Origin: Cephalotus follicularis
Taxonomy: Eukaryota; Streptophyta; Magnoliopsida; Oxalidales; Cephalotaceae
Assembly: GCA_001972305.1 (NCBI GenBank)
Contig: BDDD01000723.1
Span: 124,001-188,000, forward strand
Reading direction: 5' to 3'
DNA length: 64,000 nucleotides
How positions within the stretch are numbered: the first letter of the stretch is position 1; each line of letters starts with the position of its first letter. This document shows positions 1,996 to 57,739 of the stretch, piece after piece. Both the position numbers and the translations under genes were made by a program. The notes beneath the pieces were generated by a model. The model saw only the letters and a list, made by a program, of their open reading frames with translations, was not told the DNA's origin and made no database searches.

Positions 1996-2127
1996 AAGCG
2001 TCGACTCCTTAACGTAAGCTCCGACGCCTTAGCACATATGTCTTAAGCGTTGACACTTTTGTGTGAACGTCGACACTTTCTTTGTAAAGGGTTAAGCGCT
2101 GACGCTTATTCTTAACTGTCGACGCTT
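1996..2127 (+). repeat. Phased palindrome array in LTR A, left segment
   Basis: Six degenerate copies of AAGCGTCGACGCTT occur here. Core positions (first base of the TCGA-like tetramer) are about 2001, 2021, 2050, 2069, 2099 and 2118, so steps are close to 20, 29, 19, 30 and 19 bp: three doublets repeating every 49 bp. Core variants are TCGA, CCGA, TTGA and CTGA. Sequence between copies is not repeated. Confidence 0.85.
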
Positions 2128-3599
2128 TAAACCATTTTCCTATGGACGGTGCGGTCAGTGGCTTAGTTATGAATGTATGATTCTTGCCATAATCCGATTA
2201 TATGGTTTCCTTCCATGTTGGACGCGTTATCTGTCTATATGGTAAGCTTTAATCAACGCGTTTTGGATATTAAAAACCTACGTTTTCATCCTTTTAAAAC
2301 ACCACCACATGCATTGTTTTCAACTCAGCCATAGCCATTTTCTTTTCATCATTTTCGGCATATTTCATATCAACTAAAGGTATGTTCTGATAATGGTTTT
2401 GATTTCGTTTTATATTAATACTGTAACACCCCGCGCCCGCAGGGCGGACACGTGGCATTACTCTCAGTCCAAAACACAATACAATGGTCGGGACTAGCAA
2501 TATAAAAATGCGGAAAACTTAAAACTTTGCAATACATACCAGTTACGGAAGAAACAATACAAATCCATCCATACAGTACAATGCAAATCTTTTACAATAC
2601 AGTCTTTTACAATACATTATTAATCCTTCAATACAGTATTACAATACAGTACATTCCAAACTTCACTACAATCTCATAACCAGTCTTGCGGTACCCAAGC
2701 AGTCATGCAATCAAATCGAGTCTTGAATCTTTCTGTCCACTCCTACCTGCTGCCCTACCTATGCCGCACATAAAGGTACAACACAGGCCCACCCCGAAGG
2801 ATGGGGTTAGCCACACTAGTTAAGCAGAAACCCCATGCAGCATGTATGCATGTACAATGTGCAATATCGGTGACAATCTATACAATATCAATGTGCAGTG
2901 TACAATATCAATGCATGACATGGCAAATGTACATGTACAATTGGCGATCATACTATCCGTATGACAGTGGCCCCATAACAGAGCATACGGATAGGATCTA
3001 TAACAATCAATCAATGGCAGACACTCAATGGTGGTGTATGAAACACCCAATCAATCAATCAATATCCTATAGAGCATGCGACATGTCTTTGCTGCAGAAT
3101 CAAGGATAAAGCACTCAGATGAAAAAGACATCGACGTCTTTGGGCTAAGGGTCGATGTCTTTCTGGGGCAGAGTCGATTTTTAGGCAGAAAATGGGGCCA
3201 ATCTCAAGCCAAAATCCAATTAAAAGACATTCTTTGAAAACCAAAGTTTACAATCGATCATTTGAGGTTAGTAAGGCTACTTACAACCTTCCAAATTCAA
3301 TTTCAATCCTTTAATTAACAATTATGTCAAGGGTTAGCTATAAACCCTAAAAACCTCAATTCACTCAATTCAATCACTCAATCACTCAATCAATCATACA
3401 ATTCAGTCAATCAATCAATAAAGCGATAGACAATTCTATAAAGAAGTCCTACCTATCACTGACGCTTCAAAAGTTGAGCTTCCAATCACTCAATCGGTTG
3501 CTATGCCGTTCAATCACCAATCCACTCCTTGCAATTGCTGTTCTTGTCGATGGAGATGCAATCCGGGGCTATAATGGTGGAAGATGGAGGTGCCAGCAA

Positions 3600-3603
<4 letters not shown>

Positions 3604-3645
<42 letters not shown>
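3604..3645 (+). repeat. (GA)n microsatellite in B 3' LTR
   Basis: Uninterrupted GA dinucleotides, followed by shorter GA/TA-rich imperfect runs to about 3665. The partner LTR has a shorter run at 10899-10924, so repeat length changed after insertion. Apparent Arg-Glu ORFs here are translation of the repeat. Confidence 0.97.
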
Positions 3646-3657
<12 letters not shown>

Positions 3658-3709
3658 GAGAAAGAGTGAGAAAATGAGAAATATGAGAGTAAGGAGAGAA
3701 AGAATTGAC

Positions 3710-3717
3710 TTATATAG
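3710..3717 (-). promoter_or_regulatory. TATA-box candidate, B 3' LTR
   Basis: CTATATAA on the minus strand, about 170 bp inside the LTR start. It is conserved at 10986-10993 and in solo LTR G at 44587-44594, as expected for the element promoter. Confidence 0.55.
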
Positions 3718-3885
3718 TCAATTCGATCAACTCTCCGAAACTCGGCTCAAAATCCTGACTATACATGCATGCGATCAATACAATATCAATAGGTATAAGA
3801 ATACCTCAATTCAATACAATTCAATACGGTCCAATACGGTACGATGTATGCATGAACAGTACCAAAGGGAATTCGGGTCGTCACA

Positions 3886-8743: not shown

Positions 8744-10898
8744 TGTAACACCCCGCGCCCGCAGGCAGACACGTGGCATTACTCTCAGTCCAAAACACAA
8801 TACAATGGTTGGGACTAGCAATATAAAAATGCAGAAAACTTAAAACTTTGCAATACATACCAGTTGCGGAAGAAACAATACAAATCCATCCATACAGTAC
8901 AATGCAAATCTTTTACAATACAATCTTTTACAATACATTATTAATCCTTCATTACAGTATTACAATACAGTACATTCCAAACTTCACTACAATCTCATAA
9001 CCAGTCTTGCGGTACCCAAGCAGTCATGCAATCAAATCGAGTCTTAAATCTTTCTGTCCACTGCTACCTGCTGCCTTACCTATGCCGCACATAAAGGTAC
9101 AACACAGCCCCACCCCGAACGATGGGGTTAGCCACACTGGCTAAGCAGAAACCCCATGCAACATGTATGCATGTACAATGTGCAATATCGGTGACAATCT
9201 ATACAATATCAATGTGCAGTGTACAATATCAATGCATGACATGGCAAATGTACATGTACAATTGGCGATCATACTATCCGTATGACAGTGGCCCATAACA
9301 GAGCATACCGATAGGATCTATATAATCAATCAATGGCAGACACTCAATGGTTATGTATGAAACACCCAATCAATCAATCAATATCCTATAGAGCATGCGA
9401 CCGAGTCAGTACAATGTTAATCGGTTAGCGGTGATCAATCCCACGGAAGGTAGTCCTTCGAAAAGGGTGGGAGATCTATCTACGATTTCCAGATTGATTA
9501 GGTCTGGGACTCATAGATCTTCCAACCTATGGCTGGGTCAATACAGTCTCTATGAGCTACAACCGAGGGAGCTACTGATACCGTTAGGGAGCTACAGCCT
9601 CAAGGGAGCATCAATTGACAATCAATCGGTACCGCTGATCAGCAGGTCAATACAATACAATACATGAAACGATCGGCAGAATAGGTGGACAGAGTCAACA
9701 ACCTAACATGCTGAATAAATCATGAGGTCACTCTATAGGATCCATACAATACAATCAATCAATCAATCGAGTCAATACAATATTAGGTAAAGTCAATAAG
9801 TGGTGGTGTCTAATGGAGAAATGGGAACGTGCGTCCATCGTACCGACTTAGGCTCGCAACAACACTCACGACTCAAGCAATCAATCAATGTATCAATACA
9901 ACATCGAAGCAAGGCCAATAATTTGTGGTGCCTAATGGAGGGATGGGAACGTGCATCCATTTTACCGACTTAGACTCGCAGCGACACTCATGACCTAGGC
10001 AATCAATCGGTCAGTGCAATCATTAAAACTGTTTTTAAACACTTGAACACCTCAAGTGAGGGTCCGGTCAAGTGGTGATGTGAAAAAAAGTGGAAAACTA
10101 GCTTTAAAACAGTTAAAAACTCCTTTCAGTACATTAGGCATCGATGTCTTTGGTAAAAGACATTGACTCCTCTTTAGAACGGAGGAAAGACGTCGACGTC
10201 TTTAGAAAGACGTCGATGTCGTTCCCTGTTTATACAGAGAACTGGCCAAAGGCGTTGACATCCTTGGAGAAAGGCGTCGACGCTTTTCAATAAAAACAGC
10301 CTGAGAATGCGCATCGATGTTCGGCATCGATGTCTTTCCAGGGGAGAGACATCTCGAGGCAAAGACGTCGATGTCTTTGAAAGTCGTCGATGTCTTTGCT
10401 GCATAATCAAGGATAAAGCACTCAGATGAAAAATACATCGACGTCTTTGGGCTAAGGGTCGATGTCTTTCCGGGGCAGAGTCGATTTTTAGGCAGAAAAT
10501 GGGGCCAATCTCAAGCCAAAATCCAATTAAAAAACATTCTTTGAAAACCAAAGTTTACAATCAATCATTTGAGGTTAGTAAGGCTAGTTACAACCTTCCA
10601 AATTCAATTTCAATCCTTTAATTAACAATTAGGTCAAGGGTTAGCTATAAACCCTAAAAACCTCAATTCACTCAATTGAATCACTCAATCAATCATACAA
10701 TTCAGTCAATCAATCAATAAAGCAATAGACAATTAGGTAAAGAAGTCCTACCTATCACTGAAGCTTCAAAAGTTGAGCTTCCAATCACTCAATCGGTTGC
10801 TATGCCGTTCAATCACCAATCCACTCCTTGCAATTGATGTTCTTGTCGATGGAGATGCAATCCGGGGCTACAATGGTGGAAGATGGTGGCTGCCAGCA

Positions 10899-10931
<33 letters not shown>

Positions 10932-11171
10932 CAGAGAGAGAATGAGAAAATAATAAATGTGAGAGTAAAGAGAGAAAGAATTGACTTATATAGTCGATTC
11001 GATCAACTCTCCGAAACTCGGCTCAAAATCCTGACTATACATGCATGCGATCAATACAATATAAATAGGTATAAGAATACCTCAATTCAATACAGTTCAG
11101 TACGGTCCAATACGGTACAATACGGTATGATGTATGCATGAACACTACCAAAGGGAATTCGGGTCGTCACA
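8744..11171 (-). repeat. 5' LTR of element B, full length
   Basis: 2428 bp, minus-oriented, TG..CA bounded. It contains a TATA candidate at 10986-10993, a (GA)n run at 10899-10924, and the palindrome array at 10141-10484. Many tandem-like CAATCAAT runs occur (for example around 9370 and 9750). Confidence 0.93.
10141..10484 (-). repeat. Phased palindrome array in B 5' LTR
   Basis: Fourteen TCGA/TTGA cores lie mostly within AAAGACGTCGACGTCTTT or GGCGTCGACGC-type palindromes. Core starts: 10141, 10163, 10193, 10213, 10255, 10277, 10314, 10327, 10354, 10368, 10387, 10438, 10459 and 10481. Most neighbours are 19-22 bp apart, with gaps of 30, 42 and 51 bp. The copies at 10314 and 10354 are off register. 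The array lies downstream of the TATA candidate in the direction of transcription. Confidence 0.85.
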
Positions 11172-11176
11172 ACTAC

Positions 11177-12725
11177 TTTCGTTGAATAGAAAGTATATAG
11201 ATTGTTCAAAACTTCATTGTTAATCCATGAAAAAACTATTCTAAATCATGAAACCATGATTTGTACAGTTCTATTGCTATTTTCAACCTATAAATCCCTA
11301 TGTCTTTGAGTTTGAAGTTTTATACTACTGTTTTATGACTTATATATAGAAAACGGAATTTTTTTGTTCATGTTGCAACTGATACATCGACGCATTTTCG
11401 TGTTTTCAACCCAAAACGTCGACGCCTATGTCGTATACGTCAATGCCTGTGCATAGGAAAACTATTTTTATCATCCTGCATGTGTTAAAGCGTCGGCTGT
11501 TTTTGTTTCCTGTCGACGCCTTCACCAAAAACGTCGACGCTTTGTTGTGAGTGTCGACGCTTTTGTCATAAATTGTTATGTTTTCCTCAACGCTTTTGCT
11601 GTGAACGTCAACGCTTCTGTCTTGAACATCAACGCTTTCTCCTAGAAAGTTGTAATCAGTGTCTGTTGGCTTGTAACACGGCTTGGTTTGTATGTTTAGG
11701 GTTCCAAAATTACTGTGGTGGAGATTAAGGTGATTCTGTGTGTGCTTTTGATTCATTCTTGGGATTGTTTAGGCTTGAACGACTAAGGTACGGTTGTTTC
11801 GTTCCTTGATACTCTCCTATTGATTTTATTAGAGTAAGAAGTTAGTTTTACTTTATGAATAATGTACAGATTCTTCATTTTTTTTTGGATTATCTTCCTT
11901 TGGTTTTATTGGAATAAATTTAGTTTTTACTTTTGATAAGGTACGAATTTTTTTGTTCTTGGATATCTCTTTCGGTTTTATTTGAATGATTTTAGTTTTA
12001 TATTTATAAATAAAACTATGAATATTTTGTTGTCATGTTCTTTAACTGTTTTGCAAGATAAATGATGTTTGATTTTGTTAAGAAAGTATGTTTTCCGAGC
12101 AAGTATGAAATTGCTATTTGATAAATTATTATCGTTTGATAAACGATTTTCAGAACAAGAAACTTTGGTTTATATATATGAAAATTGCATGTGTTTGAAA
12201 TGATTTTGAGAAAATCATTATTTTGAAATCATTGAATACTGAGAATATAACCACTTATGGGGGTACCATAGGTATGCTGTAGGCCTGGCACGGGAGCATG
12301 ACACCATCCGTAGCGGTGTGATCACTCTACGGCGTCTCTCTATGTATGATATCCTATGGAGAGGATTTGGATACCATTTATGATAGAGGCGTATGGGTCG
12401 GCCCTAGGATATAGATATGTTATGGGAATTGACTGTGTAGTGCCGTACACGTCATTCCATTAGGCAAGTGGTTCCCCGGGTATCCCTTGCATATGTATAT
12501 GTTAGTAATATATGTGCATTTCTCAGTATGAAACATTGGTTTGGAAAGGTATGGAATTTGATATGAAAACGTATATCTACCTTATGAAGTTTGTGAATCT
12601 ATATGTATATGTTTAACATTGACAGCTTTTTAAATCACACATTTTAGTTTTGCTAATTGCAATGTTTTCATAAAGTGTCCGTATTACTTTTGTGCGTAAA
12701 ATGTTTTGCTATTCTATATCCGTAC
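11177..12725 (+). repeat. LTR A middle segment, with second palindrome array
   Basis: This continues solo LTR A after insertion B. Cores at 11387, 11419, 11440, 11493, 11513, 11534, 11554, 11587, 11608 and 11629 sit in copies of AACGTCGACGCTTT and relatives. Steps are 32, 21, 53, 20, 21, 20, 33, 21 and 21 bp, close to whole multiples of the helical repeat. Variants are TCAA and TCGG. The rest of the segment (about 11650-12725) is AT-rich with no ORF of note. Confidence 0.85.
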
Positions 12726-13741
12726 TGACAGGACCAGTTCCCGCTTCCTCTTTCGAAGATGGGCACTGCCCGAGGAAGGCCTTCTGCCAACAACCCTGCT
12801 CTGCTAACTGCACTTAAACAACTAAGGTTAATCCTCTCTTCAACTACAAAACGGCCAGACAAGAAAGGCCCGTGCTGGGCGCGTAACTGTTATGAAATAA
12901 TCGAGCAGAGGACTCAAAGGGGTAGAGGATCCAAACTTCCCTCCTCCTTGTGTCCTCAACATTGCTTAACCAAAACTCCAAAATGCGCCGCATCACTAAA
13001 CGCCCGAGGAGAACACCCATGTGCTTTTCACATGATCACTTAAACCTCATGTCTACAAAACTCCCAAGGACACACTTCCTCCATGGGCTTTTCTCCTCAA
13101 CTCTTCCCTAAAGTGATCTCCTCAACATAACGCTTAACCTTAACATCAAAACGCTTAGTTTAACTTAACTTAAAACACAGTAGCGTCAAAAACTTCATGT
13201 CTTCCTCGGACCTCTGTCTTTCTTGTCTCCTCTGACCAGGTATCCGAGGACTCCTCAACAAGTCTTACACAACACAAGAGGCCAAACAACCTCTTCCGAG
13301 GACTACCTGTCTCCTCGGGTTAAACCGCTTACTCAAAAACATCAACCCTTGCCATCCTCTGCTAAGATATCCGAGGACTCCCTAGCACCTCGGATAAACC
13401 TAAAAACATAAAAACTCATAGCATCAAACATTCATTATATCACAAGACAAAACTAGTCCACAGACTAGAAACATCAAATAATTTCTTGAAAGTATTATTA
13501 CATAACAAGTTGGTCCTCTGACTAAAAACGTATAATACCTGTTCTGCTCAGCAAAAGAAAACAACAAAAGCTTTCCTTCTATACAAAAGATATACTCTTG
13601 ACTACTCTACAAAAAAAAGAAGGTAGAGGAACCCAAAAGAATGCCCAATGTTATGCAATGCTAGACGTCTGAGCCACGTCATCCGAGATGCCGAGGACAA
13701 AAAGCTACCTTCCTTAGCTCTCTACTACTAGTCTAGAGGAT

Positions 13742-13773
13742 CTCCTCCTCCTCCTCCTCCTCCTCCTCCTCCT
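13742..13773 (+). repeat. (CTC)n microsatellite in C 3' LTR
   Basis: About ten CTC units. The same site in the other LTR (around 28055-28070) has only four or five units, so the tract changed length after insertion. Confidence 0.95.
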
Positions 13774-14400
13774 GCTCGCTTGTCTGCAAAGAAATATGTG
13801 AGGGGATTAGTCCAACTGATTAAGTGAATGAGAACAAAACATCCTATGATACTTTCCTTAAAATGAATGTGCTGAAAGAAAATAGGCCATGAACAAGATT
13901 AAGGATCCCAACTGGGGAAATAATCTATACAAACATAAATGTCATGGCTCACGTCTGAAGAAATGCTCAAAGTACATGAAAGAAAAGCTTACTCTTTCCT
14001 CTGCTTCACTGATGCTCTAAGATACTTACAAAAGCTTAAAGAAACTTAAGATAAAACGAAGATTAACTCAAGTACTCTGAAAAAGGATCCGACTTGGCCT
14101 AAAGTACCGAGAAGGATAAGACTCACTCTTAGAATAGAACAAGAACTTGCTTCTCGGAACTTACTTCTTTTGCTTGCTTTACATAATATAGTTGCCAGCT
14201 TATAGTGGCCTGAGCTGAGCTGAACTTCGACCTTAGCCATAAACTGGGCAGCTTGCCGGCCGATAACCCTTGTGGTTCTCCTCTGAACTTGCTTAACTTT
14301 GCGTACTTTCTTCGAATAGATTATCCGAGGACTAGCTCCTCCTCTGAAAACTTACTGATAGGCTCTAATCTCTGATCTCGGGTAACTTAGCTCTGCAGTG

Positions 14401-14650
14401 CTCAAACCCTAAACAACATCATAGACAATTGTGTAAGGGAGATCCAGCTATGGTACCCGAGGACAGTCTCACTCAACAACCCATCATAGACAATAGGTAG
14501 GTTGAGGAGGTTGGAGCTATGTACATAGTGTTCGGCTGCGCTCAAACCCTAAACATCATCATAGACAATAGTGTAAAGGAGATCCAGGTATGGAACCCAG
14601 GGGAAGACTCGCTCGACTTCCCATCATAGACAATAGTAGGCAGAGGAGGG
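14401..14650 (+). repeat. 140-bp tandem duplication in C LTR
   Basis: CTCAAACCCTAAACA starts at 14401 and again at 14541. Each unit also holds two copies of a CATCATAGACAATAG word about 75 bp apart. The other LTR carries the same arrangement split by E (28697 to 39880). Confidence 0.8.
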
Positions 14651-15120
14651 GGTTGAACACGTACTGTTACCTCTCTAGAAAGTGACTGATCACTTAGAAG
14701 AAACTTGAGCTCTGGTGCTCGAAAACTCTCTCCTCTGACAAGGGAGACTTACAAAGGACGCCAGGGAAACAAATTCCCGCTAGAAAGCTCTCACGGTACT
14801 AAAGCTGAAAACTGAAAGATTATCAAGAAACATCATGAAATCAATGAATCAATAGAAAGGATGTCCCACTCACAGTTCTCAGCTATGTTCTCTGATGGCT
14901 TACTTTTTCCTTTGCTTCTTCGTTCTGCTGTGCTCGGACGCTACTGTAACACCCGGTGTTTTCCTTATTCTAATATTTCGTTTTAAGATATAATCTTATG
15001 CTTGAATTAATGAAAATATTTGAGATTTCGGCATCAAGGATCTTTCCAAACCCTAAATATTGTATTGGGGAAAGAAATGTGTATGTTAAACAAAAACGGT
15101 GCGGTTTTGGGACAATCGCA

Positions 15121-15262
15121 TCGATGTCTTCGGAAAGACGTCGACACCTATGGTAACCGAGATACACGTGAATACAGGGACATGCATGTCGATGTAGGGT
15201 GAAGACATCGACACCTTCTTCTGAAAGAGGAAAAGACATCAATGACTAAGGAAAGACGTCGA
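15121..15262 (+). repeat. Palindrome doublets, D 5' LTR cluster 1
   Basis: Cores at 15121/15141, 15189/15208 and 15239/15259 form three doublets spaced 20, 19 and 20 bp. Full copies read GACGTCGACGTCTTT or ATCGATGTCTT. The 3' LTR keeps the pairs, for example 22534/22554 and 22652/22672. Confidence 0.88.
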
Positions 15263-16030
15263 CGTCTTTGAAAAGAATATCAGTCATGTTATGAACTGAC
15301 AGAGTAACGTGCAAGAGGGAAGGAATTAGTATCCTTGCAGGTACCTTGAGGCACAGGAAGGAGACGTGTTGATCATGCATAATGGCCTCCTGACCTGCAT
15401 GACTGAAGAAGGAGGAATAACATGACAAGTGTGGGTGTGCATGCAACCTGCAGAAAACATGAGATGGAAACAAAATGAAATTCACTGGGAAAGAGGGAGA
15501 GAACACGAGAGTGTTCATTGAATGCAGGGAGAAAGAGGGAGAGGGAGCCATCTGCATATGAACAACCCCCTCCCCACCTCTGTCTCTCGTTTAAAACACC
15601 AAAGGAAAGGAAGAGGAGGGAACCAGTGAGTGGGAGAAAGAGAGAGCCACCATTGTTGAGCTTGATTGGAGCTAGAGACTTGGAGCTTGTGGATTGCAGC
15701 TACTGAGCAGAACTCGGAGCTGCTGTGGCTGGAATCTTGGAACACAAAGAGGTGGACTTACAAGGTTTCTAACTTGAAATTAGAGGTAGGGGAAAGTGAT
15801 GATTCTTATACGTGCATTTTGAGTTTTAAAGATAATGAATGCCATTGGTGAATTGCATGTGAATGGATGAATTGAAGTCTTTGGACTTGTTGTGATGACC
15901 ACTGTGATGTACGGAGTGAACATGCATGTGCAAATTACATGAATATTTGAACTGGTTTACGTAATGGATGATTTGAGTAATGACCTGGTGTGTTAAGACT
16001 ATGGAAATGACGTTATGGACTGAATAGACG

Positions 16031-16448
16031 TCGATGTCTACCTAAAGACATCGATGTCTTCGCGTGTGAATGAAAAAGACATCGATGTTTGTTTAAAAGC
16101 ATCGACGCCTTTTTTGGGTATTCATAGAACAGTAGTGTTTACTGCAGATGGTGAATTGGCCACTTGTGGTTACGTGTTTATTTACGGATTGATGTTCTTG
16201 TTACATATCCTGATAACCAGTAGCATGTATTACGCCTTGAGAGGGTGAGTTTTGCTTACACGAGGGTTTAGGGGCCAGATTCTTCCCCCTAGAATCAAGA
16301 TTTGCGAACTGATACCTCCTGGTATCATAAAGACATCGATGTCTTTTGAAAAGCATCGATGTCTTTGGTCGAAAAATCCCTGGGAATAACTGTACGAGGG
16401 GTTGACTCCTTAGGGTAAAGACGTCGACGCCCTAGGAATAAGCATCGA
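16031..16448 (+). repeat. Palindrome doublets, D 5' LTR clusters 2 and 3
   Basis: Cores at 16031/16051 and 16082/16102 (20 bp each, 31 bp between pairs), then 16336/16356 (20 bp) and 16402/16424/16445 (22 and 21 bp). The motif is mostly AAAGACATCGATGTCTTT, with some AAGCATCGACGCTT. Both the geometry and the motif are retained in the 3' LTR. Confidence 0.88.
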
Positions 16449-17650
16449 CGCTTATCCTCCTGTTTGAAGAAATTTCGCTCGAATGGGACCCGCTAGACCC
16501 GAAACGACTCTAGAAACGATCCTAGATGCAATCTGAGCATATGTTTGCATTATTACTGTGACTTGCATTATGATTGATTTCTAAAAAGTGTTAACCATTT
16601 TGAAAAGCTTGTATGATTATTATAATCATTATTGTACGAAAATGTATATTTGTCAACATATGAATATATATATTTTCGAAATGACTGGGGAAAGTATTTT
16701 CCAAAGACGGAGAAATGTTTTAAAGGATTGGTTACACAATTCAAAATGTATTGTTTTAAGTTTTATAACTTATCACAACCTGAGAACGGAGTAATATATT
16801 TTAAACAAAAATATTTGATCAAGTGATTTATATTTTATTGCTTGACTTGTACTGTACGATGTGTGTGCTTGTTGATTATTAGCCGCTGTGCTAATAACCT
16901 TTTGATTGTTTGGCCGTCGTGCTAAGCAACCTGTACGGAGGACTTACTCGAAACCGTTCACAAACAGGGATGGGGTAAGAGTGCATGACGTTGGGGCCAG
17001 GAGGTGGCGACGGTCATGATGATTGGTTTCTCTGGTTCCTTTTGGGACATACTTACTGCTTGTGTTGATGTAGCCTTACGAGGTTATACCTGTACTGTGA
17101 ACATGCATATACTTTATACATGTATACACTATGATATATATACTGCAATATATATATACTATACTGCATCGTAATGCATTCATTCATGATACTCATTATC
17201 ATATACCTCGTACTGTATTTATGAGTTTATGCACTTAGCCGAGTGAGGACAAAGGCTAACGCCTACTGTAACAGATTGACATAGTGGATATGATATGGAG
17301 AATGCAAGGAGACTTAAGGAGAAGACTGAATTGTTTCTCTTATTTTTTTGTACTGAATTAATGAACATTGGTTATGTTAATCGGATTATTGTAACGTGGT
17401 TTACTTCATCTTGTACTGTTTTATCACACTCCGTTGTGGGCGATCAACTATGATGTTGAGCTTTATACAAACTTGTTGGGTATCACGTAGTATGGGATGC
17501 GTGATACATATTTAAATTCAGCTTTTCATGTTATTGCTTCCGCTATTGAAGATTTTGTTTATACGTTTTATTGCATAAGCTGAATTATGTTGTGTTGATT
17601 GCCTTACCGCTTTAATGATGTCCTCTAGGGAAAACGGGGTGTGACAGAGT

Positions 17651-17662
17651 GGTATCAGAGCA
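17651..17662 (+). other. Primer binding site of element D
   Basis: TGGTATCAGAGC, three bases after the LTR end, complementary to the plant initiator-Met tRNA 3' end. It is the best preserved PBS in the window. Confidence 0.96.
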
Positions 17663-17757
17663 TATTCCATAGATGCTTAGCTAGGATACTTTCCTTGGCA
17701 ATCAATAAATTGTTTTCCCAAAGTCGTGACTAACCGTCATCCTTCTTATAGGAAGAA

Positions 17758-20985: not shown

Positions 20986-21052
20986 GTACATGCTGATGGT
21001 ATTCTGAGATATCGGGGACGTGTGTGTCTTCCGAATGAACCAGGATTGAAGA

Positions 21053-38300: not shown

Positions 38301-38336
38301 CGGGTTTCTGCTGAAAAGGAACCTGGGCTTGGACAG

Positions 38337-42436: not shown

Positions 42437-44794
42437 TGTAACACCCCGCGCTCTGAGGATGGACACGTGGCACTACTCTCAATCCAATACACAATACAAT
42501 GACCGGGACTAGCAATATAAAAATACGAAAAAACTAAAAACTTTACAATACATCTCAATGTGCTGAAGATACAATAATCCTTCCATATGATACAAGCTAT
42601 CAATCTTTTCAAAACAGTTTACAATACAACCTCTGCCAAAACAAAACGGTAATGCGGTCAAATGAATCTTCAATTCTTCTGTCCGTTGTAACTTGCTGCC
42701 ATACCTGTGCCACACAAGAATGCACACACAGCCCCACCCCGTAGGATGGGGTTAGAGACAAGGCTAGCAGAACCCCCATGCAATATTTATGCATGTACAA
42801 TGTGCAATATCTGTGGCAGATTATACAATATCAATGTGCTGTGTATAGTATCAATGCATGATATGGCAAATACATGCATACAATCGGTGATCTAACCATC
42901 CATATGACACTGGCCCATAACAGAGCATATGGATAGAATCTATAACAATCAATCAATAGCAGACACTCAGTGGTGGTGCATAAAACACCCAATCAATCAA
43001 TCATATCCTATAGAGCATGCGACCTCAGGTGAAGACAATGTCAGGTAGTAACAATGATCAATCCCACGGAAGGTAGTCCTTCGAAAAGGGTGGGAGATCT
43101 ATCTACTTATCTCAGACTGATCAGGTATGGGTCTCATAGATCTTCCAGCCCACAACTGAGTTAATACAGTATAGATGAGCATCAACCATGGAGGAGCTAC
43201 TACCTTCGGGGAGCTACGGCCCTCTGGGTGCATCAATCGCCAGTCGCTAATAGTACTGCTCGTCAGTAGGTCAATACAATAAATGACACGATCGACGAAA
43301 TAGGTGGACAAAGTCGACAGCCTAACATGCCGATGCGGGTCATAAGGTCGCTCTATAGGATCCATACAATACAATCAATATGTCAATACAATGCCAATAA
43401 GTGGTGATATCTAATGGAGAAAATGGAATGTGCGTCCAACGTTTCGAACTTAGATTCACAGCACCTATGGCTCAATAAATCAATCAATCGATAGCTAATA
43501 GATGGTGACAATCAAATTAACGAGATAGGAAAGAACATCTATCTGGTCAAAGAGAGTCACTGGGTCATCATCTATGGCCTAATCATGTCACTTTATCAAT
43601 TCAATCATTGAAAACCATGGAAAACTGTGTTTCAAATGCTTGAATACCTCAAGTGAGGCTCCAGTCAAGCGACAATGTAAAAAGAAGTTGAAAACTAGCT
43701 TTAAAACATCAATTTTCCAAAATAGGGCGTTGGGTGTTGACGCTCAACATTGACTTTCAATAGTAGATTGATGGGCGTCAACGCCCTTGGTAGAAGGCGT
43801 CGACGTGCATCGTGTCTCTAAAAACCAGTAGGTTTAGGCCTTAACGTCCTCGGTTCAAGGCGTTGACGCATAAACTGAAAATGTTGACACTGAGATGGCT
43901 CATATGATTTACGTTGACCTCTTACCTGGGAGAAAGAAATCCCAAGTCGTACGTGTCGATGCCAAAGATACACGTTGATGCTAACTTCAAATAAAACCTC
44001 AGTAAAACAATCCAGGAGATCAAGGCGTTGAGGCCAATGGGCTAGGCATCAACTTCTATGCTGGGAAAACCATTTTTCAGCAGAAAAAGTAGCTGATCTC
44101 AGGTCAAAATCCACTTTAAAGTCATTCTTTGAAAACCAAGGGTTAAAACCACTCCTTCAAGGTTAGTAAAACTTGTTACAACCTTCAATTTACAGTTCCA
44201 ATCTTCCTAGATCAGTTAGATCAAGGATTCAATTTAAAAACCCTTATTCCACAATTCTATGCAATACAATCACTCAATCATTCAATTCAATCAATCAATC
44301 AGTCAAACAATAGACAGTTCAAGTAGAGAATCCTACCTATAATTGGAGCTTCAACAGTTAAGCTAACAATCAATCAATCAGCTGGAAGCACTTGAAAACC
44401 CAGATGCTATCTTGCTCAAGCCAAAGAGAAGTGAGACTTCAATTGTTATTTGCTGATGGAGGAGCCAATCCGGAGCTGCTGGGAAGAAGAGAAGGCTACT
44501 CAGCTAGGGAGAGAAGGAGAATGATAGAGAGAGAAGGAGAGGAATGGAGAAATGAGGAGATTTAGGGAAAAAGGTTAAGGATTGACTTATATAGTCAATC
44601 CAGGCAACTTTTTCGAAACTCAGCCCAAAATACCCCAACTATGCATGCATATGATCAATACGATAAGTAATAGGTATAAGAATACCTCAATTCAATCATC
44701 TCTCAATGTCCAATAAAATCCAATACAGTTCAATACGGTACAATGTATGCATGAACAGTGCTTAATAGTACAAAAGGGGATTCGGGTCGTTACA
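42437..44794 (-). mobile_element. Solo LTR G (B family) inside ORF3
   Basis: 2358 bp, minus-oriented, starting TGTAACGACCCGAATCCCC and ending GCGGGGTGTTACA, colinear with the B LTRs. Flanking 5-mers TGTGC (42432-42436) and TGTTC (44795-44799) match at 4 of 5. Removing it rejoins the ORF3 frame. A TATA candidate is at 44587-44594 (minus). It contains cores in GGCGTTGACGCC-type palindromes (43737-44052). Confidence 0.93.
43737..44052 (-). repeat. Palindrome doublets in LTR G
   Basis: Cores at about 43737, 43750, 43778/43800, 43841/43863/43884, 43914, 43956/43975 and 44028/44049. Within-group steps are 22, 22, 21, 19 and 21 bp. Arms are mostly GGCG..CGCC rather than the GACGT..ACGTC of relative B, and cores are mostly TTGA/TCAA. 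Confidence 0.8.
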
Positions 44795-44799
44795 TGTTC

Positions 44800-45077
44800 C
44801 CAGTCCTACGTTTTCTATTAGTCAGTTTGAACAGATTATGGAAGCTATACATGGTATTGAAAGCAGTCAAAGAAGTATAGATAACAAACAAAGGTGTATT
44901 GAAAGAATACAAAGAAGACTTAAAAGAAAATTAATTGAGAAAGGACTTATTGGAAACGAGGGCATCACACCTTCCTCGAGTCAAGAAAATGAAACAACGA
45001 ATCAAAACACCGATATTGAGGATCTTGGAGATGGAGCTGATGATAGAATGGATGATTTATCATTAGTTTATGCTTGA
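44800..45077 (+). pseudogene. Sirevirus third ORF, C-terminal part
   Basis: This resumes in frame after LTR G: FSISQFEQIMEAIHGIESSQ, then a heptad-like charged stretch (RSIDNKQRCIERIQRRLKRK) that looks like a short coiled coil, and an acidic tail (DIEDLGDGADDRMDDLS) ending in TGA at 45075-45077. A coiled coil near the C-terminus has been described for SIRE1-type env-like proteins; here it is only a pattern seen by eye. Confidence 0.75.
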
Positions 45078-45411
45078 ATTTGTAATATTTCTATTTTCGA
45101 TGCTTAAGTTTACTGTTTAATGCTTAAGTTTCATGTTTAAAGTTTTTCTAGTCCACTTTTTGATGTTTACAAAAAAGGGGGAGAAATGCAATGCAAAGAA
45201 ACAAGGGGAGAATTGCATAAGTTGAGGGGAAGCAATGCAAAAATTAAGGGGGAGTATTCCTTAATGTTTTATTTGTGCAGGGGATGCAGGTGGTTAACTT
45301 ATACAGATGCTTGGGAAGTATTTCATACATACTATTTATGTTTTACTCATACTTTTATGCTTAACTTATGATTTTATGGCAAATTTTTGTCATCATCAAA
45401 AAGGGGGAGAT
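45078..45411 (+). other. Sirevirus 3' untranslated region with repeated PPTs
   Basis: GGGGGAG-type purine tracts recur: AAAAAAGGGGGAGAAA near 45171, AAGGGGAGAA near 45210, AAGGGGGAG near 45246, and the LTR-proximal AAAAAGGGGGAGAT at 45398-45411. Multiple PPT-like tracts before the 3' LTR are a Sirevirus hallmark. Confidence 0.88.
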
Positions 45412-45523
45412 TGTTGACATTTTTGTCTCAATCCTAATTTTGATGATAACATATTTGCAACTAATGATTTCGGTATATGTGCAAGATAAGACAGATGATG
45501 TAAAAAAGAATTGAGCTAAAGCG

Positions 45524-45731
45524 TCAACAGTTATTATTAAAGTGTCAGTGCTTATGGCATTAAGCGTCGAAGGCATCATTCTAATGGGAATTAAAGCGTC
45601 AGTGCTTATGGCAGTAAGTGTCAAAGGGCATAACTCTAAGTGTCAGGAGTTGAGCACAAAAGCGGTAACGCTTAAAAGAAAGCACCAACGGTTTAAGTAC
45701 AAAGTGCCAGAAGTTAAGTTCAAAGCGCCAG
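45524..45731 (+). repeat. Phased AAGCG..CGCTT array in the Sirevirus LTR
   Basis: Core starts 45524, 45545, 45567, 45599, 45621, 45643, 45665, 45685, 45707 and 45728; steps 21, 22, 32, 22, 22, 22, 20, 22 and 21 bp. Cores vary (TCAA, TCAG, TCGA, GTAA, CCAA, CCAG), so many palindromes are now imperfect but the spacing is kept. Further AAGCGGTAACAG direct repeats follow at about 45816-45880 (24-bp period). Confidence 0.85.
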
Positions 45732-46042
45732 CGGTTGACAATATGGCCTAAACAAATGTGAACAAAGCGACAACGCTTGGTAACGCTTTACTTGTGACCG
45801 TTAGCGCTTAAAACTTAAAGCGGAAACAGTTTTATTCAAAGCGGTAACAGTTTTATTCAAAGCGGTAACAGTTTACGCGAAGTGAAGGAAAACAAAGCGT
45901 AACGGTAACATTTAAGCGTCGACACTTTGGTTTGCGATTGCAATCTGATCATGCCTTATCAACGCTTAATTCAAGGCCAATATTTCCTAAATGGTTACAA
46001 CGAATAGGTGACAAATTCCAATTGCTCTTTTAGCAAGACCAC

Positions 46043-47960: not shown

Positions 47961-48308
47961 ATAAAATATTTTAGGAAGGTAGGTAAAATACTTTTGAATG
48001 AAAGAATAGAGTTTCCTTAGATTGCTTTATTCTCCTTCCTTCTTTCTCTACGTTGAAGAAATTTCTACACCGAAATCTCCACAAAATTTCCCTTCCCTTC
48101 TCTTCTCTCTTTCTCTTTCTCTCCTTCTCCTTTCTCTCTTTCTCTCCCTCTCTTCCGCTTTCTCTCCCTTTCTTCCTCTCTTCTGCCGAATGCACATAGC
48201 AAAGGAGCAGTATTTATAGGGAGTCTTCAGCCGCCTTAAATTTGTCATTTTCCTCTAACCATTCGTAGCGCGACACGTGGTATTGAAAACATTAAAAACG
48301 TTAAAGCG

Positions 48309-48569
48309 TCGAAGGTTAATAACTAATGTCACTGCATAAGCCCCAAAGTGTTGCAGCTTCGCCTTCTAAGCGCTGCTAGTTGACGCGTACAAAGGAAAAA
48401 TAACGCTCGAAAGCGTCGCCGCTTTCACCATTACACTATAACAACTATCGACGCTTTAAGTCACAAATTCGGTACCCACAAAAGAAGCCAAAATGTCGAT
48501 GCCTTAAAATAACTGTCAACAATTTATGGCATTTCACCAAACTGTCGACGCTTTAAAATAGGCAGTCGA
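48309..48569 (-). repeat. Palindrome array in LTR H
   Basis: Clear cores at 48309/48329 and 48497/48517, 48545/48566 (steps 20, 20, 28, 21 bp) in CTGTCGACGCTTT-type contexts, with weaker copies at 48351-48470. The array lies 90-350 bp upstream of the TATA candidate. Confidence 0.75.
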
Positions 48570-52059: not shown

Positions 52060-52458
52060 GATGACAAGCCTGTCAGCTACGAGGAAGCAATGAAGAGCAC
52101 TGAATCTGGGGCATGGCTAAAGGCCATGAAATCAGATATGGACTCCATGGACACCAACCAAGATGGAACTTGGTCGATGCACCAGAGGGTATTAACCCTA
52201 TTGGTTGCAAATGGATCTTGAAGAGGAAGATTGGCGCTGATTGTAAGATAGAGACTTACAAAGCGAGATTGGTCACGAAAGGGTGTAGGCAAAGACATGG
52301 CGTCGACTATACCAAAACTTTCTCACTAGCCGCTATGCTTAAGACCATCCGGATATTGCTTGCTATTGCCGCTCATTATGATTATGAGATATGGCAAATG
52401 GACGTCAAGACAGTCTTCTTGAACGGTTTTCTTGAAGAGGATATTTATATGTCCCAAC
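52060..52458 (+). pseudogene. pol: Second Copia element RT, N-terminal part
   Basis: A frame change near 52130 leads to EGINPIGCKWILKRKIGAD, YKARLVTKGCRQRHGVDYTK, QMDVKTVFLNGFLEEDIYMS. The Copia RT start is cut within the codons after MSQ, exactly at the TSD CCAAC of solo LTR J. Confidence 0.92.
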
Positions 52459-54938
52459 TGTCGGGAACGCATGGCCCATGCTCAGCGGAAAACTTATCAA
52501 TACGGACATTAGGGTTTAGGGCTGATTAACTTTAATTTTTACCAATAGATTAATCCCCAAGCAATGGGATGCCCTAATCTAAGTCCGAATTGTCTCAATA
52601 AATGCCAGGGAACTCTAATCAACATTCAAACAAACTGAAACCAAAACAAAGCATAAGGAAATCAGGATTCGAATAGGGTTGCTCTAAACCCTAACAAATG
52701 GGTACACACATAGACTCGCAAGGTGAACACACAATACCCTAGCCTAATGCCCAAGAAACCTAATTCCAAACATCCTTCACCCTAAGGGATGAGAAAGAAG
52801 CACCAACAAAAACCCATGGAGGTTCACCTAGGGTTTTCCAAAACCCTAACCAACACCCACTGCCATGGCACCACGGGGGAGAAGAAGAAAAGGTTCTTAC
52901 CAGAGGTGAAGACTCCTTCCTTCAAGATAAGCTCCCTCTACTCTTTATCCCAAGAACTCCAAGCTCCTCGAAGCAAATCCTCAAACCACGAATGATGAAG
53001 ATGAAGGCCAAGTGTTTAACCTAGTGTAAATCACTCTAGGTAAAGATAAAAAGCAGTGTGCAAGTTATATCCACCGTTAATGAACTTTGAGTGGGGAAAG
53101 GAGGCTTGAAAATGGCTGTAATTTTGCACCATGCGACGTAGGCGTCAACGTGTTAGTGATAGGCATCTACGCGTACACGAGCAGGAAGAAGAGAACGCAC
53201 GGCAAGGAAGAGAGAGAAAGAGAAAGAGTCCACATGTTTTGAAGAAGCTTCTCTCAAGCTTTTATAGTCAGACTTTCTCTCTCCTACTGTAGCCACGCAT
53301 CTGCCTGTCAAGGCGTTAACACCATGCGTCTCATATTATCTAGGCGTCAACGCCATGGATGAGATGAAACAGGAGCCTAGTCTCATTTAACTTTGCGTCG
53401 ATGCCTGAAACCCATACAGTCAACACGTAAACTTTCTGGTTTATAAATCGTCAACGCCATGCTCTCCATAGTGTTAACGCCCAGCGGCTTTTCTAGTTAT
53501 GGCATCGACGCATGCTCTCCATGGCGTCGACATTTAAAGCTACTGGTTTTTTCCGTGTCAACGTAAGCCATTCTCGTCAATGCCCAGCAACTCAACTAGA
53601 CATGGCGTCGACGCATGCTCTTCATGGCATTAACGCCTAAGATAAAGATGAGGCAATCTCTTCTCATTTCAAACCCTTCGCATGGAATATTTCATCGTAG
53701 CATTGCATGGACCTAAATCCATCAAATGAAATACTCACTAGAAAAACAACATCTTCCTTGATGTTGTCCTTTCAGTAAATGATATGTGTCCCACCACATA
53801 TCAACCAGTTCAAAGTCAGGTAGGACCCGAAAGCCTGTCGTTCTCTGGTATGATGATAAATTCCCAAAACATCCCGTCATCTGGTACGACCACTCAAACA
53901 GTACACTGACTATCAGATCAGCCTTGGTATGAGCGCCAGTCACCCCCGGATCAGTGTATTACCACGTCTATAAATCAAAGTCCGAATATCTAGACGCTTT
54001 ATCCAATCATCGGCATATGTGTCATGCTTCCCTCGTCATACTTGGCTCTGATCACAGCCTAGGGTTTGGATGAATGTCACCCCCAGTATTGCTGTGATAG
54101 CTATGAATCTATGATCACACTAAGACTATAGGTAGACCTCCCACGGGAACCTCTCGTTCCCAGTCCACCTATGCATGATCAGGACTTTTAAGTCTAAAAC
54201 ATACATAGATAAATAGAGCCGGTCACTCTCAGCCCAGGTGTGACGATCCCCTATTGCGCACTCGCCCATACATCTCAATGTAGCTCCCACAAGAAATAAA
54301 GACAGCCCTTTTGCTAACACCTGGCTAGTGATGGGGAAGGAAAAAATCAAAGTCAAGCAGTCACCACACAATGCATGCTAGCCGCTCAGGTCAAAGTAGA
54401 CAACGCAGGCTATAGACCTACTAGTCACCATAGACTACACACTACGGAGACCATAGGAATCCTATTGACATTGGGTATTGACTATCCAAATAGGTTACCT
54501 ATTAGTGGGTCTGTTCAGTGTCCTACTCTCTAGCACACACCTCACATTCAATTTTAGGGATAAACCCAATTGTCTACAAGATAACCAACCTCCACTGCTA
54601 ACCCGAGAGCAAGCTTAACGTGACAAGTCTTCACGGTTCATCAATGGCCCAAAGAAAGTGAACCTATGACTTGGAACATTTCTCACAGGGAGTAAGGATC
54701 TCATTCTCATAGCCTTCTCGGCACGAGATCCAACCCTTTGAATGTGATAGGGTGCTATATGGCATACAGTTAATTACGTATAATTATTTTGTTCCTTTTG
54801 GTTGGGATGAGCCACATAGCCTTGCCAATATATAAATATGTACATAGAATATAAAAGGAATTCAAAATTGCATAAATCAAGAGTGTTTATATACGAACGA
54901 GCCATATCATTGCATACAGGGACACCCCTAACCTAACA
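52459..54938 (-). mobile_element. Solo LTR J, same Copia family, inside its sibling's RT
   Basis: 2480 bp with perfect TSD CCAAC (52454-52458 and 54939-54943). On the minus strand it starts TGTTAGGTTAGGGGTGTCC and ends GCGTTCCCGACA, colinear with the 3' LTR at 56135-57739. Excision rejoins the RT frame. A TATA candidate CTATAAAAG (minus) lies at 53259-53267, just downstream of the main palindrome array. Confidence 0.95.
53398..53633 (-). repeat. Phased GGCGTCGACGCC doublet array in LTR J
   Basis: Cores at 53398, 53420, 53451, 53473, 53505, 53527, 53558, 53577, 53608 and 53630; steps 22, 31, 22, 32, 22, 31, 19, 31 and 22 bp: five doublets with a ~53-bp period. Cores alternate among TCGA, TCAA and TTAA. 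A CATGCTCTCCATG word fills several spacers. Weaker copies occur at 53145/53166 and 53316-53347. Confidence 0.92.
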
Positions 54939-54943
54939 CCAAC

Positions 54944-55650
54944 CCGGGGGGTTTACATATGAGGAGCATCCACAAAGAGTGCGTAAGCTCCAATGGTCTA
55001 TCTACGGCCTTAAGCAAGCATCCCGTGGCTGGAACATCCGTTTTGATGAGACCGTCAAGACTTTCGGTTTCATAAAAAACGTAGATGAGCCTTGTGTCTA
55101 CCGAAAACAAGATGGCTCAAACATCACTTTCTTGGTACTATACGTGGATGACATACTAATCATAGGGAATGATGTGGGTATGTTGCAGTCCGTAAAAGTA
55201 TGGTTATCAAGGAACTTCTCCATGAAGGATTTGGAAGAGGCTTCATATATATTGGGTATAAAGATCTACAGAGATAGATTTAATAGGTTGCGGGGACTCT
55301 CCCAAAGCCAGTACATCAGCAAGGTGCTGAAACCATATGACCCTGAGAATTCCAAGCATGGCCTTCTACCGATTGGCCAGGGAATTCATCTCTCCAAGAG
55401 GATGTCTCCACAGACAAATAAGGAGAGGGCTCACATGAGTAGGAAGCCATATGCTTCGGCTGTTGGCTCCATCATGTACGCAATGCTATGTACCAAGCCT
55501 GATGTCACCTATACCTTGGGTATGGCTAGTCGATTTCAGTCCGATCCCGGTGAGAAACACTGGGAAGTGGTCAAGGGGTTTCTTAAATACCTGAGAGGAC
55601 TCAGGATACCTTCTTTGTCTATGGAGGGGATAGTTAGTTTAGATTAGAGG
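54944..55650 (+). pseudogene. pol: Second Copia element RT, C-terminal part
   Basis: This resumes after J with FTYEEHPQRVRKLQWSIYGL and KQASRGWNIRFDETV. The catalytic box is intact (LVLYVDDILIIGN). It continues FSMKDLEEASYILGIKIYRD, LSQSQYISKVLK, AVGSIMYAMLCTKPDV. An in-frame TAG lies near 55645. This is the best preserved RT catalytic region of any Copia element in the window. Confidence 0.95.
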
Positions 55651-56100
55651 GCTATACAGACTCTAATTTCAACAGTGATCTGGATGATCACAAGTCCTTA
55701 TCAGGATATGTTTTCATCCTGAACGGAGGTGCTATGAGCTGGAGGACTTCAAATCAGGAAACTACTGCGGACTCCACAACGGAAGCAGAATATATTGCAG
55801 CCTCAGATGTCGCTAAAGAAGACGTTTGGATGCGAAAGTTTATTGCTGAACTTGATGTGGTTCCAACCATTGCACGTCCATTTGTGGTGTACTGTGACAA
55901 CAATGGGGCTGTTGCACAAGCCAAAGAACCGTGGTCTCATCTTCGCTCCAAACATATACAGCGACGGTATCACCTAATTAGAGAGATCATAGACATTAGA
56001 CTTGAGAGAGTTGCTACGGAGGCAAATTTAGCAGACCCACTGACCAAGGCTTTGAGCAGCACTATTCTGGAGAGATATAGAAGTGCCATGGGCTTATGCT
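55651..56100 (+). pseudogene. pol: Second Copia element RNase H
   Basis: After a frame change near 55650: YTDSNFNSDLDDHKSLSGYV-like sequence, SWRTSNQETTADSTTEAEYI, YCDNNGAVAQAKEP, SKHIQRRYHLIREII, NLADPLTKALSSTILERY. The 187-codon frame runs on past the pol end into the PPT and LTR, so its last 60 codons are not native. Confidence 0.9.
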
Positions 56101-56121
56101 ATAGGTCATGTGGCTACAGGG

Positions 56122-56134
56122 CCAAGTGGGAGAT
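56122..56134 (+). other. Polypurine tract of second Copia element
   Basis: CCAAGTGGGAGAT directly before the LTR start TGTTAGG; the same tract (GGGCCAAGTGGGAGAT) precedes the minus-strand relative's LTR at 60956-60971. Confidence 0.88.
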
Positions 56135-57739
56135 TGTTAGGTTAGGGGTGTCCTTGTATGCCACGATATGGCTCGTTCTTTGTATATATACACTCTTGAT
56201 TTATACAATTCTGAATTCCATTCATGTTTTATGTGCATATTTGTTATATTGGCAAGACTATATGGCTCATATCAACCAACGAAAAGGAACAGAATAATTA
56301 ATTATAATTAAATGTATGCCATATAGCACCCTGTCACATCTAAGGGTTGGATCTCGTGCCAAGGAGGCTATGAGAATGAGATCTTTACTCCTTATGACAA
56401 AATGTTCTAAGTCATAGGTTCACTTTATTCGGGCAATTGATGAACTGTGAAGACTTGTCACATTATGCTTGCTCTCGAGTTAGCAGTGGAGGATGGTTAT
56501 CTCATTGCCATTTGGGTGGATCCCTAAAGCTAATGTGAGGTGCGTGCTGAGAGCATGACACTGAGCTGACCCACCAATAGGAAACCTATTCGGATAGTCA
56601 ATACCCAATGTCAATAGGATTCCTATGGTCTTTGTAGTGTATAGTCTATGGTGACTAGTAGGTCTATAGCTTGTGTTGTCTCCTTTGACCTAAGTGTCTC
56701 ATCTTATCATACGCGTCGATGCCATAAAGAGCATTGCGTTGACGTCATGATAGGAGGAGACATCGCGTTGACACCATGAAGAGCATGCGTTGACGCTATG
56801 AAAGGAAGAGACAAAATGCCTATTTCATCTTATCGTTGGCATTGAAGCCATGATAGGAAAAGACACCAGGCATTGACCTTGAGAATTAAATGAGAGGGGA
56901 AAAAAGGAATAAAAGAATGATGGCTTAAACGACATAAAGACAAGAGGTCTTACACATGTCATAACACACTTTTCATTTTCATCTCTCTCTCTTCTCTCTC
57001 TTCCAAGCCGTGTTCTCGTTCCTCTCTTCCTGTCTCATCTTACGCTAGGCGTCGACGCCAATAACGCCTGGTTTGAAGAGACGCCATTTTCAACCTTCCT
57101 TTCACCACTCAAAGGTCATTATAGGTGGAGATAACTTTTATACTACATCTTATCTTAACCAAGAGTGATTTAGCATAGGTTTAACTCTTGGCCTCCAACA
57201 AATCATCTTCCTTATCCGTGGCTTAAGGAGGAGCTTGGAGATCCTTGGAGTTCCTGGGATTAGAGAGTAACGGGAGCTTGACTTGTAGGAAGGAGGCATC
57301 ACCTCTTGGTAATCATCTCTTTCTTCTTGCTTTATGGTACATGGCAGAAGGTTGTAGGTAGGGTTGGTGAACCCTAGACGAACCCCCATGTCTCTTTGGT
57401 GGGAACCCTAGAAAACCCTTAGGGTTAGGGAAGCTAGGGTTCGGGTTTCTTGGGTTATAGGCTACGATTTGTGTATTGTCCTTGTGATCTATTTTTTAGT
57501 GCCCATTATTAGGGTTTATGGGAACCCTAGGTTGAGCCCGATCTTCCCCTGTGCTTGGAGTTGATTTTGTGCTTGATTGAATGTTAATTAGGGATCCTTG
57601 GCATTTATATTGGAACAATTTGGACTTAGATTAGGGCATCCCATTGCTTGGGGATTAATCAATTGGATGAAATTTAAAATTAATCAGCCCTAAACCCTAA
57701 AATCCGAATTGCAAATTACACATTGAGCCGTTCCCGTCA
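56135..57739 (+). repeat. 3' LTR of second Copia element, shortened
   Basis: 1605 bp, starting TGTTAGGTTAGGGG and ending TTCCCGTCA. Relative to J (2480 bp) it lacks about 0.9 kb after position 56700. Four palindrome cores remain: 56716/56739 and 56768/56790 (23 and 22 bp, 29 bp between). Confidence 0.9.

Follow-up and report, generated by a model that had tools for sequence, protein, structure and literature searches.

Spaced arrays of TCGA-centred palindromes in Copia and Gypsy LTR retrotransposons of Cephalotus follicularis, possible platforms for a dimeric DNA-binding protein

A 64,000-nucleotide stretch of the Cephalotus follicularis genome (contig BDDD01000723.1, positions 124,001 to 188,000, forward strand; hereafter the window) was recognised by self-comparison, element edges, open reading frames (ORFs) and Pfam matches as a nested stack of long terminal repeat (LTR) retrotransposons, in which arrays of near-palindromic sites with the core TCGA occur. 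A, H, BG and E belong to Gypsy and look chromovirus-like, so that the contrast between superfamilies is that of these with two Copia elements, the Sirevirus-like S and J, the latter including an inverted LTR-like copy (J1) and its own 3' LTR (J2). Palindromes of the same core type, with preferred centre distances of 19-23 and 28-33 bp, are found in both superfamilies and recur throughout the genome, and the sites are more conserved than the spacers in two of three homologous comparisons. A layout common to Copia and Gypsy LTRs of one genome had been put forward in an earlier reading of this stretch (the original prediction), and it is supported by enrichment and spacing in the window and by the recurrence of arrays in outside loci. 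With moderate confidence, and on the basis of sequence, we propose that the arrays would be cis-acting platforms for a dimeric host DNA-binding protein, likely activating LTR transcription.

Against dinucleotide-shuffled controls, the window contains 18 perfect TCGA-core palindromes of at least 10 bp (mean 2.4 in 10 shuffles) and seven of at least 16 bp (0.0 in 10 shuffles). The word AAGACRTCGAYGTCTT occurs nine times exactly and 44 times at up to four mismatches, compared with about seven per first-order Markov sequence; these window-wide counts include both LTRs of each element. TCGA 14-mers with at least four of five arm pairs numbered four, six and three in the 5' LTRs of A, BG and E (0.13, 0.11 and 0.05 expected, p 0.002-0.004) and one each in the 3' LTRs of E (0.09 expected, p 0.09) and A (0.07 expected, p 0.07), and none were found in H, both D LTRs or three internal regions. 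A search blind to the core, covering all 4096 12-bp palindromes except those with fewer than four G/C and using 30 shuffles, ranked GACATCGATGTC first in A and BG, ACAGTCGACTGT in E, AGCGTCGACGCT in the linker region of S and, in J1, GGCGTTAACGCC, a TTAA relative, followed by GGCGTCGACGCC, all above 30 of 30 shuffles. The original observation of TCGA-core arrays largely holds and extends beyond this stretch; the signal is clear in A, BG, E, the S linker and J1 and weak in H, J2 and the Sirevirus LTR. Family words, picked after the core-blind search and counted at up to three mismatches, gave 12 sites in A (1.9 expected), 13 in BG (2.1), 18 in E (2.0), 12 in the S linker (0.25), six in the S LTR (0.22), five in the 48-kb region (0.23), 12 in J1 (1.2), eight in J2 (0.53), eight in H (0.78) and none in D (0.83). 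Chance and base composition were ruled out as an explanation by the dinucleotide shuffles together with six degenerate control palindromes, five of which formed no clusters and one of which formed two. The arrays lie at the following positions:

10137-10466, minus strand: A 5' LTR array, 12 sites of GACRTCGAYGTC at up to three mismatches; distances 22, 30, 20, 42, 22, 37, 13, 41, 19, 51 and 21 bp
43733-44056, minus strand: H array with GGC..GCC arms, its register shared with the A array; p 0.06 in the core-blind search, hence not above shuffles
15117-15266, plus strand: BG 5' LTR array 1; 3' LTR copy near 22534-22672
16027-16109, plus strand: BG array 2, distances 20, 31 and 20 bp; copy near 23443-23514
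16332-16451, plus strand: BG array 3, sites at 16336, 16356, 16424 and 16445; copy near 23749-23837
28968-29143, plus strand: E 5' LTR array 1, word ACAGYCGRCTGT; distances 20, 28, 21, 28, 21, 25 and 21 bp
29878-30065, plus strand: E array 2; distances 20, 21, 21, 21, 21, 20, 20 and 32 bp
38357, 38399 and 38461: further palindromes in the E 3' LTR
1997-2126, plus strand: S linker array, word AGCGTCGACGCT; distances 20, 29, 20, 29 and 20 bp
11415-11636, plus strand: S linker array, continued past the inserted A
45520-45926, plus strand: weak array in the S 3' LTR, six sites; below the core-blind shuffle test
48305-48552, minus strand: weak array of the 48-kb region with the S LTR word, in a probable second, inverted Sirevirus LTR
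53141-53637, minus strand: J1 array, word GGCGTYRACGCC, 12 sites
56712-57068, plus strand: J2 array in the J 3' LTR, eight sites; not above shuffles in the core-blind search

BG and E, whose LTRs can otherwise hardly be aligned, have their first arrays starting at LTR positions 178 and 179 (window 15123 and 28974) and later arrays at LTR positions 1088 and 1089 (window 16033 and 29884), which is either coincidence or an old shared architecture.

The spacing was analysed in twelve window arrays with at least three sites, forming eight array sets with 71 consecutive distances (the 48-kb region was left out, and A/H and J1/J2 are related pairs). Centre distances of 19-23 bp make up 34 of the 71, where random placement gave a mean of 8.9 and a maximum of 22 in 5000 runs, and distances of 28-33 bp another 13 (null 7.3, p 0.027), so that both predicted distance clusters lie above random placement. 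Seven distances of 40-43 bp and six of 49-54 bp complete the classes.

Recurrence outside the window was assessed in twenty 10-kb loci at arbitrary places on eight contigs (10,402 of the 200,000 bases being N), seven of which had a match to a genome pattern and the eighth of which was the window's own contig, and in four 10-kb loci on contigs picked without any pattern, 24 loci altogether. The twenty loci contained 53 TCGA near-palindromes (9.6 in five shuffles); among the 16 cores, the next excesses were those of TATA (80 vs 21.2), ATAT (64 vs 21.6) and CCGG (12 vs 4.0). Close pairs numbered 14 for TCGA (0.2 expected), 23 for TATA, 10 for ATAT and 0-3 for each other core. Clusters of at least three sites were found 37 times, compared with none in 10 shuffles of either kind, the word RRCRTYRAYGYY accounting for 25 clusters in 10 loci and ACAGYCGRCTGT for 12 clusters in six loci. 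Three of the four loci on contigs picked without any pattern also had arrays. In the 42 clusters of the 24 loci, the 165 consecutive distances comprised 86 of 19-23 bp, 24 of 28-33 bp, 11 of 40-44 bp and 17 of 46-53 bp, with none of 9-18 bp, four of 24-27 bp and two of 34-39 bp. The core-blind search placed the top palindrome above six of six shuffles in 19 of the 24 loci, and the cores of these 19 were TCGA in 13 and TTAA in one (scores 14-29), and others in five (scores 10-15). Since a direct-repeat partner within the same 10 kb was found for four of the 42 clusters, the LTR setting outside the window is mostly an inferred one. An attempt to count independent families in this sample failed, as single linkage of masked flanks gave seven components, one of which held 33 of the 37 clusters together with BG, E, J1 and J2; the 700-bp flanks probably carry neighbouring elements.

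Genome-wide counts were made in the 1.577-Gb assembly, with copies of high-copy families included and the events accordingly not independent, and the control was the pattern read backwards, which keeps base composition and not dinucleotides. Pairs of CGTCGACG at 9-39 bp were found at 22,495 places, compared with 64 for the control; the counts were 8,788 vs 15 at exactly 21 bp, 223 vs 1 at exactly 25 bp (many of the listed ones with look-alike spacers) and 7 vs 0 at exactly 16 bp. Among the first 50 listed places at 9-39 bp, 38 lay at 19-22 bp and nine at 29-33 bp, and 41 distinct spacers were present among 50 listed 21-bp pairs. Pairs of CATCGATG numbered 8,248 (17 in the control), 16 of the first 50 being at 19-22 bp. 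The 13-bp pair CATCGATGTTCGGCATCGATG (window 10314-10327) departs from the 20-bp rule and occurs very often across the genome; it is probably the mark of one high-copy A-like family. A search of viral contigs for the arrays found nothing.

Identity within families is 64-73% for sites and 25-36% for spacers, the background being 25-26%. In the in-register arrays of A and H, identity is 66% for sites, 50% for spacers and 75% for the remaining LTR. BG and its relative L002 have near-identical spacings in register and differ in their arms; here identity is 69% for sites and 56% for spacers (p 0.011), and 61% for the rest. The outermost arm pair covaries with an odds ratio of 7.7 among 124 clustered sites, those within one array not being independent. 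Compensatory change as proof of selected symmetry was set aside: nine of 11 doubly changed BG-L002 pairs are still complementary, and this pairing is not taken as proof because double transitions preserve complementarity automatically. The arms differ between the in-register arrays of both A/H and BG/L002, mostly by transitions, which deamination of methylated cytosine could explain just as a change of specificity could. Imperfect palindromes are directional: among broken pairs of the sense strand, A-C outnumbers G-U in six of the eight array sets, with the reverse in J1 and J2.

The original prediction had described the arms as family-specific. Its LTR letters, given without coordinates, were mapped by motif, and the GACGT arms of its B and the GACAT arms of its D both fall in the BG family (14945-17646 and 22358-25059), where its G motif probably also belongs. 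The arms do differ between homologous arrays, but GACGT and GACAT share one LTR family and are therefore not specific to a family; the A array has mainly GAC..GTC arms, an AAGCG..CGCTT-like arm being present at one site only (10277). An exchange of long LTR modules, likewise suggested there, is not supported by the window LTRs. With the palindromes masked, A and BG have one 14-bp match only (E 0.4), matches between Copia and Gypsy LTRs get no better than E 0.39, and the 37-bp match of BG and E (86%, E 1.7e-6) is as for distant Gypsy relatives. Single sites of 12-18 bp may be exchanged between LTRs. Tandem duplication alone was rejected as the origin of the arrays: a 49-bp duplication is visible in E, yet spacers are near background identity and, as given above, most of the listed 21-bp spacers are distinct. 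Integration into palindromes was also rejected, since none of the element boundaries (A, D, BG, E, H) coincides with a site, and the published preference is slight in the available part of the source (PMC6911290).

The mechanism that we favour places the platforms in the non-coding parts of LTR retrotransposons, where they would be bound by a homodimeric host protein or small protein family that recognises palindromes of 12-18 bp, TCGA-like at their centre. The dimers would be paired two helical turns apart (20-21 bp), with the next pair about 30 bp, or roughly 41 or 50 bp, further on, and would thus lie on one face of the helix and could bind cooperatively. Such a binder would explain the symmetry, the spacing, the free spacers and the sharing across families. 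A host origin is suggested by the lack of a visible additional gene in A, BG and E, in which no ORFs of at least 200 amino acids were seen besides pol, and by the sharing across superfamilies. The most likely role would be activation of LTR transcription and, in the Sirevirus, also of the env-like gene, as is suggested by the TATA boxes located after the sites (122 and 93 bp past the last sites of the S LTR and the 48-kb region, and 52 bp past sites in J1). The linker array of S, which precedes the env-like ORF, points the same way; its word is also present, weakly, in the S LTR. The arrays could have grown by tandem duplication of units of one or two sites followed by decay of the spacers, and use of one factor by all the families may have led them to converge on a common core. 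As a candidate for this factor, a CBF/DREB-like reader of GTCGAC/GCCGAC was set aside, as ATCGAT variants argue against it and GTCGAC as a whole word is absent in the literature checked.

Several observations weigh against this proposal. Related words are among the top five in H, the S LTR, the 47.6-50 kb region and J2, where shuffles were not clearly beaten (p about 0.06-0.23), and nothing rose above shuffles in the three internal (coding) regions, at 60.5-63 kb or in D, which is an LTR retrotransposon without an array. The distances had been predicted to lie near multiples of the helical repeat; this holds for the 19-23 bp class and for the best period in the window (10.35 bp; 10.6 in the 24 loci), but gaps of more than 23 bp alone give 11.25 in the window, and the 24 loci without the 19-23 bp class give 11.1. 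Exact multiples of one helical period are hence only partly true, with distances of 46-50 and 66-69 bp fitting badly and the 13-bp pair in addition, and what is claimed here is a spacing grammar and not a clean period. That 13-bp distance makes up 28 of the first 50 CATCGATG places, more than any other. In the comparison of BG with its closer relative L004, sites and spacers do not differ significantly (86% vs 81%, p 0.26), and the three inner purine-pyrimidine arm pairs show no covariation in the 124 clustered sites. Regarding promoters, the sole TATA-like word of A and H lies about 500 bp before the array and not after it, two sites of J1 lie past the TATA box, and BG and E show no clear single promoter.

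Other explanations account for part of these data. Action at the RNA level, with array transcripts forming hairpins for small-RNA silencing or packaging, is in our estimation unlikely. The palindromes of maize Sirevirus LTRs have reportedly been proposed in later work to be small-RNA hotspots or hairpins, and 11 arrays fold better than shuffles here (z -1.9 to -7.3 sense, -1.9 to -12.2 antisense, compared with +0.9 to -2.7 in five control stretches); however, any palindrome array folds, and so the z-scores are no test. Hairpins also need no fixed spacing of 20-21 bp, and the broken pairs of the sense strand (A-C 78, G-U 40 over the eight array sets) show the opposite of what selection on wobble-tolerant sense RNA would leave, although an antisense RNA could be compatible with this bias. 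An equally improbable explanation is that the arrays are neutral products of a palindrome-prone duplication process without selection, in line with the duplication visible in E and with the whole A-H array region diverging faster than the remaining LTR. Such a process is at odds with spacers, and not sites, being near background identity, with the same core in unalignable LTRs and with the two of three homologous comparisons in which sites are the more conserved.

Still less probable is a transposon-encoded binder that counters silencing, in analogy to VANC, for which the PF20167 protein of S would be the first candidate. VANC targets are fast-evolving arrays in the non-coding DNA of transposons, made up of short motifs, according to the available parts of the reports (PMC5735166, PMC10398659), and relatives of the PF20167 ORF are numerous in this species, but no additional gene is visible in A, BG and E, and sharing across superfamilies is at odds with family-specific anti-silencing. 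Symmetric CpGs could themselves be the point, as targets of host methylation or as CpG-island-like switches without a specific binder, a reading to which we attach very little weight: the observed/expected CpG ratio is 0.99-1.67 in the arrays of A, the S linker, the S LTR, J1, J2 and H and 0.51-1.06 around them, but the BG, E and 48-kb arrays have no CpG excess, and fixed spacing and fixed arms are left unexplained.

Comparison with known systems points to the Sirevirus repeated motifs (RM) as the closest precedent. In the accessible text of Bousios et al. 2010 (PMC2829016), RM are palindromic, are present in at least eight copies in the LTR and before env, have raised CpG and a TATA box shortly after, and were reported as specific to Sireviruses among the Ty1/copia elements compared; their words have a CGG-CCG signature except in Tnd-1, and the centre is TCGA in two of 13, Vitis CGGTCGACCG and Tnd-1 ACAATCGATTGT. 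As far as that text goes, S fits this plan apart from the CGG-CCG core: it reaches the copy number with 12 linker and six LTR sites at up to three mismatches (the LTR part alone lying below the core-blind shuffle test), its word in linker and LTR follows the arrangement published for env-carrying Sireviruses, and its top word AGCGTCGACGCT lacks the CGG-CCG core, for which Tnd-1 is a published exception (PMC2829016). The restriction of RM to Sireviruses does not extend to this genome, in which the Gypsy elements A, BG and E and the second Copia element J carry TCGA-type arrays. The spacing is also fixed here, while in the accessible portion of that paper 'helical' and 'spacing' appear in the reference list only (PMC2829016). 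No description of phased palindrome arrays in Gypsy LTRs was found in searches at title and abstract level, most subscription journals being outside the search. Within these searches, neither this core type and spacing in Gypsy plus a further Copia element nor any mention of the spacing came up in print, and the best reading is that the arrays extend the known Sirevirus palindromes.

Among other kinds of transposon, the nearest working analogue is provided by the VANC target arrays of VANDAL elements, which resemble the present ones in being dense arrays of short motifs in non-coding transposon DNA with fast divergence between relatives (PMC5735166, PMC10398659, as available). They differ in belonging to DNA transposons with an element-encoded binder, and their motif is not described as palindromic in the available part of PMC5735166. 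The stress-factor boxes of Tnt1, ONSEN and EVADE are similarly LTR motifs read by host transcription factors (PMC12786077; symmetry of Tnt1 box I via PMC2829016), but in the accessible parts of these sources they belong to single Copia families, without a core shared across superfamilies (PMC12786077, PMC2829016).

A broader possibility, which we advance only tentatively, is that one dimeric factor, of the host or of one transposon, could be the common currency of independently built Copia and Gypsy arrays with tens of thousands of phased pairs. If so, the arms of whole arrays would drift together with their read-out while the 20/30-bp grammar stays, and the factor would control a large part of the mobile DNA in this genome; given 22,495 exact pairs of one word, it could affect the expression or silencing of much mobile DNA. 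From a spacing grammar that outlasts the turnover of spacers, arms and families one would predict a dimeric factor with a cooperative geometry, and sensitivity to a 5-bp shift. Palindromic LTR motifs would then extend from Sireviruses, among Copia elements, to Gypsy, which touches the question of how plant LTRs evolve fast and yet continue to be readable by the host.

The elements of the nested stack are arranged as follows:

1-1609 (pol fragments within), then linker, PF20167 ORF and 3' LTR from 45412: S, Sirevirus-like Copia
41578-42438, plus strand: PF20167 ORF of S, at the position of the Sirevirus env-like gene; 3' end cut by LTR H
45402-45409, plus strand: terminal polypurine tract AGGGGGAG of S; next come AT and, at 45412, the S 3' LTR, which opens with TG
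LTRs 2422-3885 and 8744-11171, minus strand: A, Gypsy, inserted in S
42437-44801: LTR H, inserted in S, related to A
12726-40563: D, inserted in S, with CGTAC on the flanks
12726-14944, minus strand, resuming at 25060-25391: D LTR, array-free, a natural negative control
14945-25059: BG, Gypsy, in a D LTR, with GCTAC on the flanks; LTRs 14945-17646 and 22358-25059
28795-39753: E, Gypsy, inserted in the other D LTR; 5' LTR 28795-31326
about 50-58 kb: J, second Copia element; 3' LTR from 56135
52458-54936: J1, inverted LTR-like J-family copy within the J pol region

The 3' LTR of A lacks about 1 kb found in its 5' LTR, and most of the array is lost with it. The TATA-like word of A and H is conserved and nearly palindromic (TTGACTATATAAGTCAA in H), at position 179 of LTR A and 208 of LTR H in element orientation. 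D combines LTRs of about 2.5 kb, the sole LTR pair without an array, with internal DNA of only about 1.65 kb that has no Pfam-recognised ORF, and looks non-autonomous. The Chromo match of BG (E 5.9e-4, 20.1 bits) is under the curated cut-off of 25.1. S has a Copia-type reverse transcriptase, with RVT_2 at 701-1039 and 1145-1609, and two more copies of the AGGGGGAG tract at 45176 and 45247; as to the Sirevirus primer-binding site TATCAGAGC, the recorded 9-mer belongs to BG, the 5' LTR of S being outside the window. The PF20167 ORF has 126 database relatives, and Cephalotus follicularis is the source of all 120 listed, which points to a large lineage-specific expansion of this family.

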